Virus record (IMG/VR): IMGVR_UViG_3300023215_000556
Span: 1-29,127 of that record
DNA from: a virus
Length of the DNA: 29,127 nucleotides
Reading direction: 5' to 3' (one strand)
Below, one piece after another: positions 1,257 through 14,725 of this stretch; the first letter of the stretch is position 1; the number at the start of each line of letters is the position of its first letter. Made by a program: the position numbers and the translations under genes. The notes beneath the pieces are model-generated. The model was not told the DNA's origin. It ran no database searches and saw nothing but the letters and a program-made list of their open reading frames with translations.

Positions 1257-1964
1257 ATGCCGAGGGAAAAAAAGAGCGACAAGGGCCTGCCGCACCGAGG
1301 CAAATATGTCGCCTATCTGCGTGTCTCGACGCGCGAGCAGGGACGTTCCGGCCTCGGCCTGGAGGCGCAGAAACAGACAATCCAGGATTACCTGGACGGC
1401 GGCGACTGGGAGTTGATCGCCACGTTCAAGGAGGTTGAGAGCGGGAAGAAGGGACGGGCAGGGCGACCGAAGCTCGACGCCGCGCTCAATCTTTGCAAGA
1501 AGGAAAAGGCGACCTTGATCATCGCGCGGATCGACCGGCTGGCGCGGAATGTGTACGTCACCGCCTCTCTGTACGAGGCGGGCATCGATTTCATCTGCTG
1601 CGATTACCCCAACATGGATAAGACGCACATCTATTTGCTGTCGATGATGGCTGAAAAAGAGGCCGACAACATCTCCATCCGCACCAAGGCGGCGTTGAAG
1701 GCGGCGAAGGCGCGAGGCGTCGTCCTCGGCAACCCCAACCTCCCCAAGATCAGCCCTCTAGGCGTCAAGGCATCGAAGGCGAAAGCTGATGCCCACGCGA
1801 AGGAGGTCTACCCAGTTATCCAGATGATCAGACGATCCGGCGTCTCCTCTCTCCGCGGCATCGCACTTGAACTTGAAAATAGACGCGACATCGAGACAAC
1901 CAAAGGCGGTGCATGGTCGGCGCAGCAAGTCAAAAACATCCTGCAACGGTCGGGTGAAAAATAA
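1257..1964 (+). CDS. Small serine recombinase (resolvase/invertase family)
   Basis: The product is a 235-residue site-specific DNA recombinase. The resolvase catalytic domain spans about residues 16-155. It shows YLRVSTREQ with the nucleophilic Ser24, the SGLGLEAQ segment at 31-38, EVESGKKGRAGRPKLDAAL at about 59-77, and ARIDRLARN at 90-98 with the conserved Asp-Arg pair and later Arg. The C-terminal part, about 185-235 (SLRGIALELENR, then GGAWSAQQVKNIL), looks like the helix-turn-helix that binds the crossover site. The total length suits a resolvase or invertase, far shorter than large serine phage integrases of about 450-600 residues. ATG 1257 has a strong AAAGGAGG site. Its role could be integration, inversion or dimer resolution; no target site was recognised. 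A tyrosine integrase remnant begins right after its stop codon, suggesting recombinase replacement. Confidence 0.9.
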   Translation: MPREKKSDKGLPHRGKYVAYLRVSTREQGRSGLGLEAQKQTIQDYLDGGDWELIATFKEVESGKKGRAGRPKLDAALNLCKKEKATLIIARIDRLARNVYVTASLYEAGIDFICCDYPNMDKTHIYLLSMMAEKEADNISIRTKAALKAAKARGVVLGNPNLPKISPLGVKASKAKADAHAKEVYPVIQMIRRSGVSSLRGIALELENRRDIETTKGGAWSAQQVKNILQRSGEK

Positions 1965-1965
1965 T

Positions 1966-2205
1966 GACGGGGTTCCCGGTTGGTTTCGCCGTAGATGCGC
2001 CGACGCTGGCCTCATAGGCTGCTCGGCGCATGGCCTCCGCAAAGCCGGTGCCGTAAGGGCCGCGATGGCAGGGGCAACGACTAAACAACTTATGGCGATT
2101 TTCGGCTGGCAATCTGCGGCTATGGCTGATAGATATACCAGAGAGGCTGATCGAAAAATTCTAGCGGCAGAATCAATCCATTTGCTGGGGCGGAAAGCTG
2201 GATAG
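1966..2205 (+). pseudogene. C-terminal remnant of a tyrosine integrase
   Basis: The frame starting beside the serine recombinase stop encodes about 79 residues ending at TAG 2205. They match the end of a phage-type tyrosine recombinase catalytic domain: a helix WFRRRCADAGL, then SAHGLRKAGAV (the conserved H-x-x-R box), then TTKQLMAIFGWQSAAMADRYT, which contains the His/Trp-box position as Trp in FGW and the tyrosine nucleophile in RYT. The N-terminal core-binding domain, the first catalytic Arg and the Lys hairpin are absent. The open frame extends backward into the recombinase gene only as an unrelated overlap. There is no ribosome binding site for it. I infer a decayed gene and not an active integrase. 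The identification rests on motif order. Confidence 0.75.
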
Positions 2206-2255
2206 ATAGTGTGACTCTGACACAGGCTAATACCATAGACTGGAAAGGAATCGGA

Positions 2256-3242
2256 ATGGCGAAATATTCGATTACAGGCGTCGAAAGCGGCGCATCGGAG
2301 TTAGGGGCAATCGTCCCCGTGAACGGCGAGTACCTGTTGCCTTTTGGCAACAGCCCCAACGACATTCTCAAGCGACATCATGCGGCGCAGGACGGCGTTG
2401 ATGCCTTTTCAGCAACCCGCGTAATGGAAGGCGGCAACAGGTTCGAGGATGCCACCAGACAATGGTTCGAGGATGATTTTAATCAAGCCGTTAAACATCC
2501 TAAGAGAGGATACCGTAATAAGAAATGCAACCTAGTTGCCAGCCTCGATGGCATCATCGATAGCAGCCCCGGAGCCTTTGTGATCACCGACTACCAAGGG
2601 GTTGAGCATGTGTTGGATGTCGAAAATGGGATTGGCGTGGTCGATTTCAAATGCCCGACATTCCAGCCCGATAATCCAGAGGCGCTGCACTATGTAATGC
2701 AGATGCAGGGGCAAATGGACTGCGCGGGAGCCAGCTGGGCGATCATCGCCTATCTACCGAGGATCAATCTCGAATGGGTCATCGCGGTGATCAAGCGCCA
2801 CCAAGGGACGATCAATGCGATTCACGAGGCGGTCGATATCTTCTGGGGCCACATGGAGAACGACACTAATTATCCACCTTCGACGACCACCGAGGCGAAC
2901 AAGCTGATTGGCGGGAATCGCCGCCCCGAGGCCCTCGACCTGATCGAAGGATGCCCGGACGAAAGCCCCATCGACGCCAATGGCCGCGACGAATTAATGA
3001 ACCTGGCTGAAAGCTACACCGCTGGCGTCAAAACCAAGAAGGCGGGCGAACGCCTCAAGGAAGAAAGTCAACTCGCGATCCAGCATATCTTGAATGGCGT
3101 TGAAAGGGTCAAACTCCCAGGCGTCAACGTCAATTGGTCAACAACTGAATATCGAGGCCAGGCAGAGAAAACCAAGATCACGCCAGCCAAACCCGCATTC
3201 ACCACGCGGCGGTTCTCTTTAAAGGAGATCGATAATGTCTAA
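2256..3242 (+). CDS. YqaJ/lambda-type exonuclease (PD-(D/E)XK fold), probable
   Basis: This is a probable dsDNA exonuclease that makes 3' overhangs for phage recombination. I choose ATG 2256, after AAAGGAATCGG, over a GTG at 2211; this gives 328 residues. Motifs in family order are EGGNRFED around residues 58-65 (conserved Gly and Glu), LVASLDGII around 93-101 with Asp98, GVVDFKCP at 127-134 with Asp130 and Lys132 as the D-x-K core, and MQMQGQM at 148-154 with the glutamines typical of YqaJ-like enzymes. An unusual point is Asp at the position usually held by Glu in E-x-K. The C-terminal third (about 240-328) is helical and ends with a segment rich in Thr and Lys. It overlaps the annealing-protein gene by 8 bases, supporting a Red-like pair. 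The nuclease assignment is motif-based. Confidence 0.8.
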   Translation: MAKYSITGVESGASELGAIVPVNGEYLLPFGNSPNDILKRHHAAQDGVDAFSATRVMEGGNRFEDATRQWFEDDFNQAVKHPKRGYRNKKCNLVASLDGIIDSSPGAFVITDYQGVEHVLDVENGIGVVDFKCPTFQPDNPEALHYVMQMQGQMDCAGASWAIIAYLPRINLEWVIAVIKRHQGTINAIHEAVDIFWGHMENDTNYPPSTTTEANKLIGGNRRPEALDLIEGCPDESPIDANGRDELMNLAESYTAGVKTKKAGERLKEESQLAIQHILNGVERVKLPGVNVNWSTTEYRGQAEKTKITPAKPAFTTRRFSLKEIDNV

Positions 3243-4104
3243 GGCATTAGCGGTCACCGACGAAGCTGGCGAAATACTGGAGAAAGTCATCAACGATGGC
3301 GACCTTGCGAAGTTATCTCCATCCGATCGCATTGGATATTATCGGAAGGTTTGCGAGAGTGTCGGTCTGAACCCCCTAACGAAGCCTTTCGAGTACATCC
3401 TCCTCAACCGGAAGCTCACGCTATACGCCAAGCGCGATGCCGCTGATCAACTCCGGCAAATTCACGGCGTCTCGATTAAGGTCATCACGACGACCCTCGA
3501 AGACGGCCTGTTCACCGTCCATGTGGCGGCACAAGACAAGACCGGACGGCACGACGAGGACATCGGAACGGTGCATATTGCTGGTCTTAGAGGAGAGGCG
3601 AAGGCGAACGCCATGTTGAAGGCGATGACCAAGGCCAAACGAAGGGTGACGCTCTCGATCTGCGGGTTGGGATGGCTTGACGAAACGGAGGTGGCCGACA
3701 TTGAGGGAGCGGCGAGGCCAACGCAGAACCTCGATGATCTTTTCCCCACCGCAGAGGCCCCAGCAGCGTCGCAGAGCGACGAGGACGGCGACCAGGCGCC
3801 CGTGGGTGTCGAAGCACCAGACGCCACGGGTGACCCTGTGACCCTCACAGTGAACGGGGAAAAGTACGACCTCTCAAACGCCGCAGAATATTTCGACGAA
3901 TATCTCAAGCAACTACGGCTGATCGAATCTCTCAACAGCACGCCCCCCCGTGAAAGAATGACCGAGATGCGAGTATTTGAGGAAGCGAACGCTGACAGCC
4001 TCGACCAAATCCCCCCAGAGGGGAGGGCAAAGCTGATCGAATGGCGGATGAAATTGAACAGGAAACTCGGGACCACTAAAGAAGACTGGAGTGTAACGAT
4101 ATGA
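3235..4104 (+). CDS. Probable single-strand annealing recombination protein
   Basis: This 289-residue protein is coupled to the exonuclease (8-base overlap, AAAGGAG site before ATG 3235). Phages commonly encode an exonuclease and a single-strand annealing protein side by side (lambda Red, RecE/RecT). The N-terminal core, about 1-157, has YYRKVCESVGLNPLTKPFEY (35-54), LTLYAKRDAADQLR (61-74), and NAMLKAMTKAKRRVTLSICG (125-144) followed by GLGWLDETE. The A-x-T-x-A-K-R-R pattern next to a hydrophobic Gly-rich turn resembles annealing proteins of the RecT/Rad52-like superfamilies. A low-complexity acidic linker at about 158-200 precedes a separate C-terminal helical region (205-289). The exact superfamily cannot be fixed by eye; the role is inferred mostly from context plus the core pattern. 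Confidence 0.65.
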   Translation: MSKALAVTDEAGEILEKVINDGDLAKLSPSDRIGYYRKVCESVGLNPLTKPFEYILLNRKLTLYAKRDAADQLRQIHGVSIKVITTTLEDGLFTVHVAAQDKTGRHDEDIGTVHIAGLRGEAKANAMLKAMTKAKRRVTLSICGLGWLDETEVADIEGAARPTQNLDDLFPTAEAPAASQSDEDGDQAPVGVEAPDATGDPVTLTVNGEKYDLSNAAEYFDEYLKQLRLIESLNSTPPRERMTEMRVFEEANADSLDQIPPEGRAKLIEWRMKLNRKLGTTKEDWSVTI

Positions 4105-6869: not shown

Positions 6870-7535
6870 CTATTCTCCTATTTCTAATAATGTTAGTGTA
6901 GCGCCATACATATACGCGGCGGCAGAAGAGCCACCCATCTTCATCTTAACTGTATAGGTCGTGGAAGATGTTGTGGCTGGGGAGTCAAGTTTTTTAATAT
7001 TAGCCATCGCTGCTACATATTTGGCTGAACTAACATTATCTCGTTGGTGTATATAACTCCCTGAACTATGATCCCACATTTCAGTTGAGCCTCTCACAAC
7101 ATTTACTAGTATATCCGGTCCGGACCAGGCCGTCGAACCATTGGCATAAACGCTGCCCACGAACAAAACCATAACCTTACTATTTGCCGATGATGGTGTT
7201 ATAGAGCCGCTGAATATTGTTACATAAGAAGTAGATGTTGTTGATGTGCTGCTATTATTACCGTCTAACTGATGGTTGAACTCAACAACTTGTAGCACCT
7301 TGCCTCCGGCGTCGACCCAAGTCGGGATACTGGTGGTGTTTCCTTGCAGGGTCTGCCCAGCCGTGCCCTTTGCCACCCGCGCCCAGTTGGTGCCGTCGTG
7401 CCACATTAGATCGCCTTGAGCTTCCGACGTGACGGATATCTTGCTGCCGTCTACCGCATCCGCAGCAAGATTCGCAGTATCCACTTCTAGGCTGCCGAGA
7501 GTGCGCATCGCGGCGGTGACTTTGGTCAAGGCCAT
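6870..7535 (-). CDS. Short tail fibre or adhesin protein (221 aa)
   Basis: ATG 7535 is preceded by GAAGGAGTAAAGTA. The N-terminal 70 residues resemble fibre-shaft sequence of marine podoviruses: LEVDTANLAADAVDGSKISV, then EAQGDLMWHDGTNWARVAKG. From about residue 78 a Ser/Thr-rich region begins (KVLQVVEFNHQLDGNN), followed by alternating beta strands (SKVMVLFVGSVYANG, TYTVKMKMGG) and ending ATLTLLEIGE. This suggests a trimeric beta-sandwich (jelly-roll-like) receptor-binding head of about 140 residues on a short stalk. It is the third fibre-type protein in a row in this late region, so it may attach to, or alternate with, the longer fibres. No enzymatic motif is seen. Confidence 0.75.
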   Translation of the reverse strand: MALTKVTAAMRTLGSLEVDTANLAADAVDGSKISVTSEAQGDLMWHDGTNWARVAKGTAGQTLQGNTTSIPTWVDAGGKVLQVVEFNHQLDGNNSSTSTTSTSYVTIFSGSITPSSANSKVMVLFVGSVYANGSTAWSGPDILVNVVRGSTEMWDHSSGSYIHQRDNVSSAKYVAAMANIKKLDSPATTSSTTYTVKMKMGGSSAAAYMYGATLTLLEIGE

Positions 7536-7570: not shown

Positions 7571-7828
7571 CTAACCAACGTACGCCTTGCCAATAGTAAC
7601 TGCGTTAGTGTAGGAGGTTTTACTATTGCTTGAATCAGAGTACCAATCTTTGGCTGCTTGGATTTCTAAATGATCTGTATTGCGCGTGACCATTAGTTTT
7701 ACACCCTCGGAGCCATCTGGATCATCATTAACAAAACTAGTATCATTTTCCACCACGGCAGCGATTAAATCTACGCTGTCATCCATTGCAGAAAAATGTT
7801 GCGCAATCTCAGCTGGTGTATCAGTCAT
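7571..7828 (-). CDS. Small acidic hypothetical protein between fibre genes (85 aa)
   Basis: ATG 7828 follows AGAAAGGTTAG. The 85-residue product is acidic (clusters such as AMDDSVDLIAAVVENDTS and NDDPDGSEG) and starts with a helix (TPAEIAQHFSAMDDSV). The second half holds LMVTRNTDHLEIQAAKDWYS. No signal peptide, membrane span or Cys is present. It sits 15 bases below the 890-aa repeat fibre gene and 35 bases above the short fibre gene, so it may help in fibre folding or be a small tail component. I do not recognise the family, and the gene is supported by the frame, the binding site and tight packing. Confidence 0.6.
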   Translation of the reverse strand: MTDTPAEIAQHFSAMDDSVDLIAAVVENDTSFVNDDPDGSEGVKLMVTRNTDHLEIQAAKDWYSDSSNSKTSYTNAVTIGKAYVG

Positions 7829-7843
7829 TGTACTAACCTTTCT

Positions 7844-10516
7844 CTAGTCGTTTAATTTTTCTTTCAGATGATTAACTTCAGCCGAAAGTTCTTGGACAGC
7901 CCGCACTAAAATCGGAACTAACTTTCCATAAGAGGCTTCTAGTTTATCGGGGTTATTTTTCAAAACAAGGCTCAGATAATCTTCAGCATCAGCATTGATT
8001 TGTGACTCATCCAAATCTTGCGCGATAAAACCGATTTCTTGGACGCCCTTCTTAGCGCCATCACGCATATTCCAGACGAACTTGACAGGATTTAAGTCAT
8101 TAATAAAGTCCAATCCAACTGGCAGTTCTTCGATATCTTTTTTATCACGCCTGTCTGAAAGTGAGGATATGGTCTGTACTTGGCAACGAATCGCTGAGAT
8201 CGAACTATTACCCAACGTGATTTCGTTATCTGCATCGTTTGCTGATGGATCAGAGTTATAGCCTAAAGATGAGTTATTTGTTCCTGTTGTGGTTAAATCT
8301 CCCGCTTGATAGCCAATACCAGTATTAAAAGTGCCTGTAGTATTTGCAAAAAGAGAGGACAGGCCAACAGCAACATTGCCAGTTGCCGTACTATTGGCAT
8401 AAAGCGCATAAGACCCGACCGCTGTGTTATCTGAACCAGTGGTGTTGGCGGTAAGCGCTAAATTTCCAATCGCTACGTTACCACCCCCCGTGAGATTGAG
8501 TTTCAGCGCATAAGACCCAGTCGCTGTGTTGTTTGCTCCAGTGGTGTTGGTATAAAGAGTATGATATCCGTACGCTGAATTTGCTGAAGCGGTGGTGTTG
8601 GCGGTAAGCGATTGCATCCCGTGCGCTGAATTGTAAGAGCCGGTGGTGTTGGCGTTAAGCGAAAAAGCGCCCGTCGCTGAGTTATTTGCACCAGTGGTAC
8701 TGGTGCTAAGTACTCGACTCCCGAACCCTGAGTTATATGCGCCGGAGACGTTGGACTGGAGAGAATTTTTTCCGAACGCTGAATTATTTGAAGCCGCAAC
8801 ATTGTCTTTTAGCGATTCAATTCCGAATGCACAATTGTCCGAACCGGTGGTGTTGAGACGAAGCGATCTATATCCGAACGCTGAGTTACTTAATCCAGTG
8901 GTGTTGGTGGCAAGCGCAGCAACCCCAGTCGCTGTATTATTGTACCCAGTAGTGTTGGCGGTAAGCGATTGATACCCAGTCGCTACGTTGTAATAGCCAG
9001 TGGTGTTGGCTTTAAGCGATTCACCCCCAAACGCTGCGTTGTAATAGCCAGTGGTGTTGAATCGAAGCGCATAATTCCCAGTCGCTACGTTGCCGGTTCC
9101 AGTGGTGTTGGTAATAAGCGCACCCCTGCCAATCGCTGCGTTGCTTGCCCCAGTAGTATTTGCACCAAGCGCGCTTTCTCCTACAGCCGTGTTGTCTGCC
9201 CCAGTGGTGTTGGCATCAAGCGCATAAGCCCCAGTCGCTGAGTTGTTTGCTCCAGTAGTGTTGGCTTTAAGCGATTCAATCCCAATCGCTGTGTTGTTTG
9301 AAGCAGTGGTGTTGGCGGTAAGCGCCTCCATGCCAACCGCCGAGTTGTAATTACCAGTGGTGTTGGCATAAAGCGCTCGTTGCCCGAACGCTGAGTTTCT
9401 GTTACCAGTGGTGTTGGCGATAAGCGCAAAATTCCCAGTCGCTGAGTTATCGTAACCAGTGGTGTTGAGTTTAAGCGCAGAATGCCCAACAGCTGAATTG
9501 TTGTAGCCAGTGGTGTTGGTAAGAAGCGCATAAGTCCCAAACGCTGCGTTGTCTGAAGCAGTGGTGTTGGATTTAAGCGCCTGATACCCAGTCGCTGTGT
9601 TGTATGCACCAGTGGTATTGGAATTAAGCGCACTGTTTCCAATCGATGTGTTATATGAAGCAGTGGTGTTTTCTCGAAGCGCATTATATCCCACCGCTGC
9701 GTTGCTTCCACCAGTGGTGTTCATATAAAGAGAATAATTCCCAGTCGCTACATTACTTCCACCAGTGGTGTTGGTATAAAGAGCCTTCAACCCAGCCGCT
9801 ATGTTCCAGCTACCAGTAGTGTTGCTACGCATCACCTCATAGCCAATAGCTGTATTCTCTGTACCAGTGGTATTGGTATAAAGCGATTTATACCCAGTCG
9901 CTACGTTGTTTGCGCCAGTGGTGTTACCGCTAAGCACAGCATACCCAGTCCCTGTATTATTTCCACCGCTGGTGTTATTAAAAAGCGCAGTAGATCCAGT
10001 CGCTGTGTTGTAGTAGCCGGTGGTGTTATTATTAAGCGCGTTTTGCCCAGTCGCTGTGTTGCCCCAAGCGGTGGTTAATTCCTCAAGCGCTTGATACCCA
10101 ATTCCGGTATTTGACTGACCGGTGGTGAGGCTTTGAAGAGCAAGATGCCCAACCGCTGTGTTTTCTCTACCAGTGGTACAGGTTTGAAGCGCAGAATAGC
10201 CAAGAGCAGTGTTTTGATTTGTAGTGCCGTCATCGTTGGCTAATGCGTTTGTACCAAGCCCGACTGTTCCACCAGAGGAATTTGTAATGGCATCTGACAG
10301 ATCATCAATCTCTGAAGCACCGCCGCCACCGCCAGAATCAACAAAGCTAAGAACGCCAGACCCGTTTGTTTTTATGACCTGATCCGCACTTCCGTCACTA
10401 TCTGGGAAAAGCAAATTCCCATCGCCAAGAGAAACCTTTCCGGTCCCCTGGCCTTTAATGGTGACATTACTATTCGTTGTTATGCCAGTAACATTGTCAA
10501 CTTCAAATGTACTCAT
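7844..10516 (-). CDS. Long repeat tail fibre with C-terminal S74 self-cleaving chaperone (890 aa)
   Basis: ATG 10516 follows GAGGATAAAG; the preceding GTG is also in frame. Residues 1-66 form an attachment region seen in marine phage fibres (GTGKVSLGDGNLLFPDSDG, then DQVIKTNGSGVLSF) with a Gly linker. About residues 96-758 are some 39 tandem 17-residue units of consensus N-T-T-G-x-x-N-x-A-x-G-x-x-A-L-x-x. These are predicted to wind into a trimeric beta-helix or YadA/S74-associated roll, each unit a turn. Residues 787-890 match the S74 intramolecular chaperone: SDRRDKKDI with Ser787 as the likely cleavage nucleophile and a Lys nearby, then GFIAQDL and a C-terminal coiled coil (VQELSAEVNHLKEKLN). 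The chaperone would assemble the trimer and then cut itself off. It probably recognises a surface receptor. Confidence 0.9.
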   Translation of the reverse strand: MSTFEVDNVTGITTNSNVTIKGQGTGKVSLGDGNLLFPDSDGSADQVIKTNGSGVLSFVDSGGGGGASEIDDLSDAITNSSGGTVGLGTNALANDDGTTNQNTALGYSALQTCTTGRENTAVGHLALQSLTTGQSNTGIGYQALEELTTAWGNTATGQNALNNNTTGYYNTATGSTALFNNTSGGNNTGTGYAVLSGNTTGANNVATGYKSLYTNTTGTENTAIGYEVMRSNTTGSWNIAAGLKALYTNTTGGSNVATGNYSLYMNTTGGSNAAVGYNALRENTTASYNTSIGNSALNSNTTGAYNTATGYQALKSNTTASDNAAFGTYALLTNTTGYNNSAVGHSALKLNTTGYDNSATGNFALIANTTGNRNSAFGQRALYANTTGNYNSAVGMEALTANTTASNNTAIGIESLKANTTGANNSATGAYALDANTTGADNTAVGESALGANTTGASNAAIGRGALITNTTGTGNVATGNYALRFNTTGYYNAAFGGESLKANTTGYYNVATGYQSLTANTTGYNNTATGVAALATNTTGLSNSAFGYRSLRLNTTGSDNCAFGIESLKDNVAASNNSAFGKNSLQSNVSGAYNSGFGSRVLSTSTTGANNSATGAFSLNANTTGSYNSAHGMQSLTANTTASANSAYGYHTLYTNTTGANNTATGSYALKLNLTGGGNVAIGNLALTANTTGSDNTAVGSYALYANSTATGNVAVGLSSLFANTTGTFNTGIGYQAGDLTTTGTNNSSLGYNSDPSANDADNEITLGNSSISAIRCQVQTISSLSDRRDKKDIEELPVGLDFINDLNPVKFVWNMRDGAKKGVQEIGFIAQDLDESQINADAEDYLSLVLKNNPDKLEASYGKLVPILVRAVQELSAEVNHLKEKLND
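8243..10231 (-). repeat. About 39 tandem 51-bp units encoding a 17-aa motif
   Basis: The DNA period is 51 bases, exactly 17 codons, so copy-number change would stay in frame. Units 1-4 and 39 at the ends are the most diverged; the central units retain N-T-T-G almost invariantly while the two residues before the conserved Asn (for example YY, AN, SD) and the A-x-G-x-x-(A/S)-L positions vary. Units 28-31 carry a run of changed motifs (NVAA, NVSG, STTG). The pattern favours slippage or recombination followed by selection on surface positions. Confidence 0.9.
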
Positions 10517-10528
10517 CACTTTATCCTC

Positions 10529-10837: not shown

Positions 10838-13800
10838 TTAGCCAGCTACTGTTGTGGTTTCAACACGGGCAACCCACCTAATTGTTTTAGACGCCTCGCC
10901 AGTGACTAAGATATTAATCCCGTCATTTGTATTATCGGCTGAAATCGTCACATCCCAAGCACTTGTGTCCTCGGCAACTATTGTCTTTGTGCCTAAACCG
11001 CCCACTAAAGCAGTAGTTCCTGCATTATTATCGATGCAGCCTTCTATTGTATACGCCGCACTTTCGTTATCTGCATCTGTTCTGCGAGCGACAATACTTG
11101 CTCGAAAAAATACCGTGCTATCGGAGGCCACAGAAATGTCGGCTGAACTTCCGTCTGCAAATAATTCAGTTTGAGTTGCATCCGTCGTTTGATTTCTTAG
11201 CACATAGATTGAAGTCTGGGCATCACCATCAGCAGCAAATTGTCCTGAAGCAAAAGCAAATTCACCAACATCAGTAGCAGTGGCCATATTACCTATGGCG
11301 ACTGAATCTACACCGCTGGCTAGGGTCTTTATTCCAATTGCAATTGCGTTAGCAGCAGTGGCATCAGCGCTTGCGCCATCAAGTAAACCGCCACCAATTG
11401 CGATAGAGTCAGCGCCCGAGGAATCTGCATATCTACCAATTGCGATTGATCGTGCGCCGGAGGCAGTTGAAAATTGTCCAAGAGCCATTGAATCTACGGC
11501 CGAAGAAACTGCCCCTCGACCAAATGCCATAGTATAATCACTAGTCTCGGCTCGGGCATCCACGCCTATCGCAATGGAATCCGTTGCTGTTCCATCTGCT
11601 CCCTCACCTATAGCAAGGCCTTTAAACCCTGTAGCTACGGCATTTAATCCAATTGCAATTGCGCTGGTGTCGCTGGCGAGAGTATTAGTCCCAATCGCAA
11701 TGGTATTAGTTGATGTCGCATCGGCGCTTGTTGCGTCGGTTGTATGGCCTCCGATGGCGATAGAGTTAGCACCAGTCGCGTCAGCATTTTCCCCGATTGC
11801 AATTGAACTAATGCCTGTCGCTGTAGATCGCGCGCCTATAGCCAGGACAGCTAGGTCACCTGAGGCATCACCAGCAACCGCCCCATCACCAATAGCGATA
11901 GCATCCGTACCAGTCGCAGTTGGAGTGGTGCCCGGAGCGCTCTGTGCCGTGAATGCGGCTTCCCCACCACCACCACCACTAGAGGCTTGCCAAGAAACGT
12001 CAGTTCCATCGTGCGTTAAAACTTCATCCGCCGATCCAACCGCTAAAACCGCAGGGTTACCGCTCGAGTCTCCATAAATTATTTTACCTCTTGCAATTCC
12101 AGCCATCTTTGCCAAAGTGATTTGGTCATCCGCGATATGCGCGGTATCTATCGAGCCGTCTACATAATGGACACTATTTATTCCATTTTCTAAAGCTGTT
12201 TTAATTTGAGCAGCCGTTTGGTCAGCAGTAGCATTAGATTCAACGCCGTCTAACTTAGTACCATCTGTTGCAACATTTCTTCCGTCAAAAGTAGAGTTAG
12301 TTGTAATAGCACCAGTCATAGCTCCACCAGCTTTAGGCAGAGCAGCGCCAGCAGTTGTAGTTGTGGACGTTAAAACACCATCTCTTGTTGCTACATCTAC
12401 TCCATCAAATGTGGAGTTGGTTGTAATTGCTCCCGTCATCGCACCACCGGCTTTGGGCAGGGCAGCACTAGCAGTTGTACCAGCAGTGACACCTGTAGCA
12501 ATATCTGTATTGATTGAATTGGCCAATTTAGCTGCGGTCACAGCATCATCAGCCAAGTGCGCTGAATCTATTGAACCATCTACATACTGATCACTATCGA
12601 CTGAATTAACGCTCATATGCGCTACATCTACTGCACCCGCTGCAAGTTCCGCCGAATCAACAGCATTATCGGCTAGATGCTCATTGTCGATAGAAGCTGC
12701 TACATAGTGTTGGCTATCTACAGAGTCATTGCCCAAGGTAGTCGAAGAAGCGGCCCAGGTTAATCCACCGGCATTGCCGCTCTGGGCTGTGAGCATGTAC
12801 CCGTTCGTCGGACTGTTTGAGATGTGGAGATTGTCCTCATCAACCGATTGACTAGACATATGCTCCAGGTCAATTGAACCAGCAGCATAGTGTTCAGAAT
12901 TTAATACGTTGTCTCCAATCTTATCCGCCGTAACTGCATCTGCACCCAGAGCAGTTGCATTAACTGAACTAGCAGCGTAGTGCGCAGTGTCGATACTTCC
13001 GTCCGTGTAGTGTTCCGAGTCTACCGCATCATCCGCGAGTTTTGTTCCGTCTATAGCATCCGCCGCAATTTTTCCTGTTGTGACCTGAAGATTTCCAAGA
13101 TGCACAGTGTCTATCGAACCGTCAACATATTGGTCGCTGTCCACGGAATTTGCAGACATATGAACAAGGTCAATTGAAGCGTCGACGTAATGAACGCTGT
13201 TGATGCCATCTTCTAAAAGAGTTTTGATTTCTGAGGCACTCTGATCGTCCTTGGCGCTCGATTCAATGGTGTCTAATTTCGTCCCGTCTGTAGATAAATC
13301 TCTACCATCCACTGTCTGTGAGCCAGACATGGCTATGTTGCCTGTCATCGTACCGCCAGCTTTAGGCAGAGCCGCGCCAGCAGTTGTGGTTGTTGATGTT
13401 AAGACACCATCTCTTGTTGCTACATCAACACCATCAAATGTACTATTTGTTGTGATAGCTCCAGTCATTGCACCACCAGCTTTTGGTAACGCTGCTGCTG
13501 CGGTAGCTGTAGTTGAAGTTAATACTCCATCTCTAGTAGCAATATCCACGCCATCAAATGTGGAGTTGGTTGTTATAGCTCCGGTCATTGCTCCACCGGC
13601 TTTAGGTAGGGCAGCTACACCTGTAGCAATATCTGTGTTGATTGCATTAGCCAATTTAGCTGCGGTTACGGCATCATCCACAAGTTGTGCAGTATCTGCC
13701 GAGACAACAAAATCAATTGTACCATCCGAATCTTGATAGGTTACCGCAACCCCCGTCTCTGTATTACCTGTCAACATAGCGCCGACAATATCTTCGACTT

Positions 13801-14725
13801 GTTCATCCGTTAATGTTGACCCACCACCACCAGAAGCGTCTACGTACGCCTTGACCGATTGCTGCGTTGGCAACTTGGTGGCCGAGTTGCTGGCCATGTT
13901 ATCTTCATCGACTGTGTCGGAAAGTTTGGCGAAGGCGATGCTGGCGTCGTCAGGTACATAAGTGCTTGCCGCCGTGCCGAATACCACCTCTATCGCGACG
14001 CTGCTCGGCGGCGCGGTCGAGAAAGTCAGCGTGGTTCCAACCAAAGTATAATTCGACTTTGATTGATATACACCGTCCAGATATACCTGGGTGTTGGCTT
14101 CCTGCCCTGGTTCCGCCGCTAGTGTATAAGCGGTTGTCGAGCCGTTTCCGGTCGCGCTGAAGACCTGATAATTTGTAAACGCCTGCAACGTTGCCAGGGA
14201 TATGCTATCTGAACCAATCGTCGTCAATGCGGTGCCACCCGAATCGAAAATGATAAACTTGCCCGCCTGGTTGGCCGGTGTCCCGTCGTATGGAAAACCC
14301 AGGGGACCAGAACCACCATCGGAGATATCGCGGTTGGCGAAGGCGTCGATCTGTATGCACCGCCTGACCAAGCTCTCAAGCTGTTGCTGGATAATCGTTA
14401 TTCGGTCGAGTTCATCGTTTATCGTCGCCGCCTTGAAGTCGCCGCCAGTGGTGAAATCGCTAGTGCGGGCGACCGCCTGATCCGACGTGATGGTGACGAT
14501 GTTGCCAGAGGTAGGCGCGTTGCCAGAGGTGAACGTGATAGAGCCTGTGCCATCGGTATTTAGGGCCACGGTATAATGCGTCGTCAGCGTTTTAACCGCC
14601 GTCGCGTCGTAGACCTTGAGATCACCCTCGTCGAGGACGGCAAAGCTAAACGAATACGGACCAACGGAGCCGGTGCTGGTGTATTGAATCCTGCGATGTA
14701 CTGCATTGATGGGGATATCGGCCAT
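10838..14725 (-). CDS. T7-type tail fibre with shaft and YadA-head-like repeats (1295 aa)
   Basis: The N-terminus (residues 1-170: QYTSTGSVGPYSFSFAVLDE, VKTLTTHYTVALNTDGTGS, INDELDRITIIQQQLESLVR) matches the T7 gp17-like virion-attachment domain. A beta-rich domain of about 60 residues follows (190-250). Residues 371-925 are shaft repeats: five ALPKAGG(A/T)MTG units, one region (DGTKLD.., then INSVHYVD) present twice, and many short SID/VDSEHY-type units. Residues 942-1161 hold about 14 SIAIG-type units like YadA head repeats, a fold that stacks beta turns in trimers. The last 120 residues (NQTTDATQTELFADG onward to WVARVETT) form a beta-sandwich receptor-binding tip. At 1295 aa it is more than twice T7 gp17 (553 aa). 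The preceding gene stops 11 bases upstream. AGGAAT before ATG 14725 decides the start. Confidence 0.9.
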   Translation of the reverse strand: MADIPINAVHRRIQYTSTGSVGPYSFSFAVLDEGDLKVYDATAVKTLTTHYTVALNTDGTGSITFTSGNAPTSGNIVTITSDQAVARTSDFTTGGDFKAATINDELDRITIIQQQLESLVRRCIQIDAFANRDISDGGSGPLGFPYDGTPANQAGKFIIFDSGGTALTTIGSDSISLATLQAFTNYQVFSATGNGSTTAYTLAAEPGQEANTQVYLDGVYQSKSNYTLVGTTLTFSTAPPSSVAIEVVFGTAASTYVPDDASIAFAKLSDTVDEDNMASNSATKLPTQQSVKAYVDASGGGGSTLTDEQVEDIVGAMLTGNTETGVAVTYQDSDGTIDFVVSADTAQLVDDAVTAAKLANAINTDIATGVAALPKAGGAMTGAITTNSTFDGVDIATRDGVLTSTTATAAAALPKAGGAMTGAITTNSTFDGVDVATRDGVLTSTTTTAGAALPKAGGTMTGNIAMSGSQTVDGRDLSTDGTKLDTIESSAKDDQSASEIKTLLEDGINSVHYVDASIDLVHMSANSVDSDQYVDGSIDTVHLGNLQVTTGKIAADAIDGTKLADDAVDSEHYTDGSIDTAHYAASSVNATALGADAVTADKIGDNVLNSEHYAAGSIDLEHMSSQSVDEDNLHISNSPTNGYMLTAQSGNAGGLTWAASSTTLGNDSVDSQHYVAASIDNEHLADNAVDSAELAAGAVDVAHMSVNSVDSDQYVDGSIDSAHLADDAVTAAKLANSINTDIATGVTAGTTASAALPKAGGAMTGAITTNSTFDGVDVATRDGVLTSTTTTAGAALPKAGGAMTGAITTNSTFDGRNVATDGTKLDGVESNATADQTAAQIKTALENGINSVHYVDGSIDTAHIADDQITLAKMAGIARGKIIYGDSSGNPAVLAVGSADEVLTHDGTDVSWQASSGGGGGEAAFTAQSAPGTTPTATGTDAIAIGDGAVAGDASGDLAVLAIGARSTATGISSIAIGENADATGANSIAIGGHTTDATSADATSTNTIAIGTNTLASDTSAIAIGLNAVATGFKGLAIGEGADGTATDSIAIGVDARAETSDYTMAFGRGAVSSAVDSMALGQFSTASGARSIAIGRYADSSGADSIAIGGGLLDGASADATAANAIAIGIKTLASGVDSVAIGNMATATDVGEFAFASGQFAADGDAQTSIYVLRNQTTDATQTELFADGSSADISVASDSTVFFRASIVARRTDADNESAAYTIEGCIDNNAGTTALVGGLGTKTIVAEDTSAWDVTISADNTNDGINILVTGEASKTIRWVARVETTTVAG
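11243..11902 (-). repeat. About 14 YadA-head-like SIAIG units
   Basis: Units of about 12-22 residues each contain a hydrophobic-Ala-hydrophobic-Gly core (SIAIG, GLAIG, TMAFG, SMALG) with Ala/Thr/Ser-rich loops. This is the pattern of trimeric autotransporter head repeats (YadA, Hia). Here it sits near the end of a phage fibre, before the tip domain. Confidence 0.8.
12140..13620 (-). repeat. Internal shaft repeats (five ALPKAGG units, duplicated block)
   Basis: Five copies of a roughly 40-residue unit (ALPKAGG, then TTNSTFDGVD and RDGVLTS in four cases) occur at about residues 371-490 and 755-830. A longer region (TDGTKLD, DQ.A.EIKT.LE, INSVHYVD) follows the third and fifth copies. The two blocks imply one segmental duplication inside the fibre gene. 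DNA similarity is high between copies, with differences mostly at third codon positions. Confidence 0.75.

Follow-up and report, generated by a model that had tools for sequence, protein, structure and literature searches.

Tail fibres that combine an S74 domain with YadA-like domains and have a variable C-terminal region have been described in marine pelagiphages (Mizuno et al., 2014; PMC3909814). S74 domains are recognized by the motif SDxxxK (PMC10769870; PMC8326128), and the catalytic pairs are S587/K592 in MyRF and S911/K916 in endosialidase NF (endoNF) (PMC8326128). The design principle closest to that of the shaft analysed here is found in BpaC, in which each layer has an invariant Gly, with a core of Thr/Asn residues, and layers were amplified (PMC9543794). 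In addition, the exchange of fibre modules has been described for Alteromonas phages (PMC10579305). In this work we analysed a tail fibre gene in a viral DNA of 29,127 nucleotides (IMG/VR record IMGVR_UViG_3300023215_000556, positions 1–29,127; this whole stretch is called the window below). The reading that we favour strongly is that this podovirus-like phage has a trimeric tail fibre, composed of a short N-terminal attachment part, 38 (up to 40) coils of a predicted YadA-type left-handed beta-roll and an S74 chaperone, in which length and surface would have changed by duplication, codon divergence and module exchange.

The fibre is encoded by a single open reading frame (ORF) on the minus strand, which covers 7844–10519 if translation starts at a GTG codon (891 amino acids, AA) and 7844–10516 if it starts at the ATG one codon downstream in the same frame (890 AA). 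The ATG is the start favoured by the homologues, which begin MST, and fits best; AA positions are given below in the GTG numbering. Over the repeats and the S74 domain the product matches PHROG profiles 23837 and 4636 (E 1e-173 and 5e-121), as well as 6002, a family annotated as structural or tail spike. The gene lies within the tail block of a genome that encodes tail tubular proteins A and B and a connector, in agreement with the original prediction that this is a podovirus. The N-terminal part (AA 2–85; 10265–10516, minus strand) is partially similar to the N-termini of other S74 fibres, for example that of locus L025 (37.5% over 128 AA), and is presumed to attach the fibre to the tail. Elsewhere in the window, a serine recombinase, a RecE-like exonuclease and an ERF-like gene (1257–4104, plus strand) follow the gene order seen in Methylophilales phage MEP301.

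In the central part of the protein, 38 units, each of 51 bp or 17 AA, form an array without indels (8276–10213, minus strand). When the ORF was compared with itself, residue identity was 0.51 at lag 17 and about 0.50 at lags 34 and 51, and it never exceeded 0.15 at any lag between 5 and 59 that is not a multiple of 17. Strict units number 37 (AA 103–731), a profile scan finds 38 with 37/37 spacings of 17 residues and zero indels, and TRF likewise detects the 51-bp array. Beyond these 38 units there are one or two degenerate ones; two degenerate coils (AA 749–782; 8174–8275, minus strand), through which the strands continue in one of the structure models presented below (m7c28ac6ca5e1), link the array to the S74 domain. 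The unit consensus is N-T-A-x-G-x-x-A-L-x-x-N-T-T-G-x-x. Asn1 and Gly5 are present in 37/37 units, Leu9, Asn12, Thr13 and Thr14 are almost invariant (the N-T-T-G residues are kept in 33, 33, 34 and 30 of 37 units, respectively), and positions 6, 7, 10, 11, 16 and 17 vary freely. The original prediction counted about 39 exact 17-codon repeats; the count was fair and the period is exact, but the sequences are not, as units share on average 30.9/51 nucleotides (61%) and 8.5/17 AA (50%), the most similar pair shares 41/51 nucleotides, and the longest exact DNA repeat, between neighbouring units, is only 23 nucleotides long.

AlphaFold was run on monomers, either of 12 units (m581f0814a7b0) or of units 29 onward together with the S74 domain (m7c28ac6ca5e1). 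The best model of the former had a pLDDT of 85.8 (59–67 for the remaining four of five), and the latter reached 90–98 across most units. Both place one solenoid coil in each 17-residue unit, a prediction that agrees with the earlier proposal of a stacked beta coil whose corners are conserved and whose surface pairs vary. VIA-align with m7c28ac6ca5e1 ranked CbpF first (Z 16.9, rmsd 2.7, 169 AA, 25% identity) and YadA second (Z 15.4, rmsd 2.3, 141 AA, 21% identity), and lower-ranked trimeric adhesin heads included BpaC (Z 13.9) and BoaA (Z 13.4). Left-handed beta-helix acyltransferases reached Z 13–14.5, with 6–13% identity compared with 21–28% for the best adhesin heads; because these Z scores are close below or level with those of adhesin heads, the predicted fold class is a safer assignment than homology, and, judging from the fold matches alone, the coil would be left-handed. 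Among viral structure models the same fold was found with TM values of up to 0.96, in many phage S74 proteins and in giant viruses, where one match is annotated as a YadA-like head. A sequence search of solved structures gave no match to the repeat. The Pfam YadA_head family (PF05658) did not match in the fibre ORF, and within these data was found only in the neighbouring ORF 10838–14725, with whose YadA repeats a profile comparison of the fibre repeat gave no match. Since the layer has 17 residues and not 14–15, we class the shaft as resembling the YadA-type fold, without assigning it to the adhesin family. In such a coil, the conserved Asn, Thr, Gly, Ala and Leu would build the structure, and the variable pairs 6–7, 10–11 and 16–17 would face outward and could carry receptor contacts. 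With the BpaC value of 0.48 nm per layer applied to the window shaft, 38 layers would span about 18 nm.

The C-terminal AA 788–891 (7847–8158, minus strand) form a Peptidase_S74, or intramolecular chaperone, domain, as had been proposed. Pfam PF13884 matches AA 788–839 (E 2e-12, 47.4 bits versus a gathering cut-off of 22), a fold search with this part ranked the MyRF ICA (7dc3) and the endoNF chaperone (3gw6) at the top, and a sequence profile matched 6f45 (E 2e-4). The sequence SDRRDK (AA 788–793; 8141–8158, minus strand) is an intact SDxxxK motif, the Ser, Asp and Lys of which do not vary among the 50 aligned sequences (alignment A4). Ser788 (8156–8158), which is the Ser787 singled out in the original prediction with ATG numbering, and Lys793 (8141–8143) have the same five-residue spacing as the MyRF and endoNF pairs, and by analogy with these relatives the dyad is predicted to direct self-cleavage after Ser788. 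The C-terminal helix (AA 864–889; 7853–7930, minus strand; helix 286–311 of m7c28ac6ca5e1) is likely to be a trimerization coiled coil, as in MyRF (PMC8326128). Most likely, the S74 domain would set three chains in register and so nucleate the trimer, the shaft of the trimerized chains would zip up, and the S74 domain would finally cut itself off, leaving the mature shaft.

The history of the array can be read from its codons. The same residue is encoded differently in different columns (Thr2 by ACA, Thr4 by ACT, Thr13 by ACC and Thr14 by ACT; p 3e-20), indicating that a single ancestral unit of 51 bp gave rise to the whole array; codon bias as the source of the uniformity is ruled out, because one amino acid uses different codons according to the column. 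Neighbouring units are more alike than in shuffled order (0/2000 shuffles), with 32.5 of 51 identical nucleotides versus 30.9 for distant units. In conserved columns, four-fold sites have gone about halfway to saturation (0.39 of 0.73), whereas positions 1 and 2 of the surface codons have almost reached it (0.65 of 0.75), and the same tendency is seen in the arrays of L023 and L027, each with its own codon set. The array thus grew by local duplication long ago, and its surface codons have since diverged at a rate near the neutral one or above it, which is suggestive of diversification, although not proof. The saturation pattern could also be accounted for if the shaft were itself the receptor-binding surface, with outward codons under diversifying selection between units, and among close unit pairs the ratio of surface dN to all-column dS is indeed 1.5. 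However, as the 95% interval over arrays (0.96–2.04) includes 1, we make no firm claim of positive selection; dN/dS inside the surface columns alone is 0.93, so that the data are explained by neutral drift of the surface together with conserved codons in the core, and most other arrays approach saturation at sites of either kind. We consider this explanation of the shaft possible but rather unlikely, and still more doubtful the wider proposal that phages repeatedly rebuild the shaft by amplifying one 51-bp unit, whose outward codons would then diversify at more than the neutral rate, each layer becoming a different receptor-contact surface.

Unit number differs among relatives, for which a comparison had been proposed along with the original prediction: those with S74 domains 85–91% identical to that of the window carry 7 (L021), 8 (L025), 13 (L027, with its 5' end cut), 20 (L002) or 74 (L024) units. 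This range, a unit length that is a multiple of 3, the slight excess of similarity between adjacent units and a two-unit block copied in L023 (92/102) would all be expected of a length-variable (phase-variable) fibre, in which 51-bp copies are gained or lost in the population by slippage or unequal recombination, thus tuning length. Nevertheless, the window array has no identical or near-identical units, and its best pair and longest exact repeat show units too diverged for polymerase slippage, the means of changing length that was originally put forward, to operate currently. Furthermore, the most alike two-unit blocks, in the window array as in L023, are ten units apart and not neighbours, and the nearest syntenic relative covering the region lacks the gene. 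We also searched for a near-identical virus record carrying the array, in which unit number could be polymorphic within a population, and found none. A phase-variable fibre is in our opinion improbable, and changes in length seem to come from ancient duplications of single units or blocks and from exchange of the whole module.

Several individual arrays deserve mention. In the window the best two-unit match is between units 13–14 and 23–24 (78/102), which may be due to chance. The L023 ORF (1896–4808) is a second S74 ORF, with 22 units and very uniform codons, and it is here that the copied block lies ten units away. The 74 units of L024 (450–5363) are part of a 1638-residue open frame in which neighbouring units become less alike the farther apart they lie, which records local duplication. 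The fibre ORFs of L067, L069, L084 and L086 have a higher-order four-unit repeat, with an identity peak at lag 4, and frequent 19-residue spacings, consistent with a 17+17+17+19 arrangement.

The nearest syntenic relative (G001, 37 kb) is 82% identical to the window in the capsid protein and 84% in tail tubular protein B, and keeps the N-terminus of ORF 10838–14725, but it has no S74 fibre gene; near the fibre position in this genome, a LamG-like ORF was read by eye (L106, 8795–9457). In the relative with 74 units (L024, genome G002), the S74 domain is 91% and the product of the gene at 7571 is 74% identical to the window, and no other window gene is closely matched. The latter gene (7571–7828, minus strand) encodes 85 AA and follows the fibre ORF; it matches no Pfam or PHROG family, and tblastn finds it in 37 related loci, in nearly all of them about 8–50 nucleotides after an S74 ORF (alignment A5). 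From its position it is probably a partner in the same exchanged module, and possibly a partner of the fibre itself. The absence of the S74 gene from G001, the sharing of S74 and gene 7571 alone with G002 and the linkage of the 85-AA gene suggest that the fibre travels as a module, in which whole fibre, S74 domain and 85-AA gene would be swapped together between unrelated phages.

That this module is the part swapped between unrelated phages, as expected for host recognition (compare PMC10579305), and that the surface positions are not conserved bear on another explanation, in which the repeat is a passive spacer, receptors are recognized by other tail proteins (10838–14725, 6870–7535) and the end exposed by S74 cleavage is a mere cap. 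Both observations argue against it; the wide variation in unit number is what a spacer would show, and the large neighbouring fibre (ORF 10838–14725, minus strand) has YadA head repeats (PF05658, E 5e-21) and an N-terminus that is conserved in relatives (74–86% identity), the remainder being not conserved. We regard a purely passive shaft as a minority possibility. The neighbouring ORF also contains a 120-bp tandem duplication (13392–13608). As favoured here, the fibre unites a long beta-roll-like shaft with an S74 cap, both of them known parts, in one portable phage module, and its column-specific codons reveal how a shaft grew, one ancestral unit being amplified and then diverging. Moreover, relatives whose S74 sequence hardly changes while unit number runs from 7 to 74 provide a natural series for the effect of shaft length and surface on host binding.

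How does this fibre compare with known systems? The first assessment held a repeat stalk with S74 to be noteworthy in a podovirus; actually, the same repeat and S74 fibre occurs in the podovirus-like Pelagibacter phages HTVC111P and HTVC112P, and 97 phage records match the fibre. The repeat is encoded at 75 bacterial loci, mostly in Bacteroidota, and in many phages and giant viruses; searches of the literature brought up no account of a tail fibre repeat of 17 residues. Closest in design are gp55 of Methylophilales phage Venkman (47% identity over 78% of the query) and gp52 of HTVC111P (38% over 78%), which are alike in having a 17-residue shaft and a C-terminal S74 domain. Relatives in PHROGs 23837, 4636 and 6002 differ in unit number and surface residues, and some have 16- or 19-residue units, of which the window array has none. 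The pelagiphage fibres of Mizuno et al. share S74 and YadA-like parts with the window fibre and have a T7-type N-terminus (PF03906), for which Pfam gave no match here. EndoNF, MyRF and Bdellovibrio MAT fibres share the SDxxxK dyad, the chaperone fold and an upstream shaft, but their stalks are triple beta-helices or otherwise beta-helical, whereas the window fibre has a long array of 17-residue layers. The heads of YadA, BpaC and CbpF resemble the window shaft in predicted fold, in an invariant Gly per layer, in Thr/Asn-rich layers and in layer amplification; however, BpaC and UspA1 layers have 14–15 residues compared with 17 in 38/38 units here, and trimeric autotransporter adhesins (type Vc) end in a C-terminal membrane anchor, whereas the window ORF ends in S74, with no anchor family found. 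In conclusion, this design is found widely among phages and bacteria, and the fibre exemplifies something already known and not something new.
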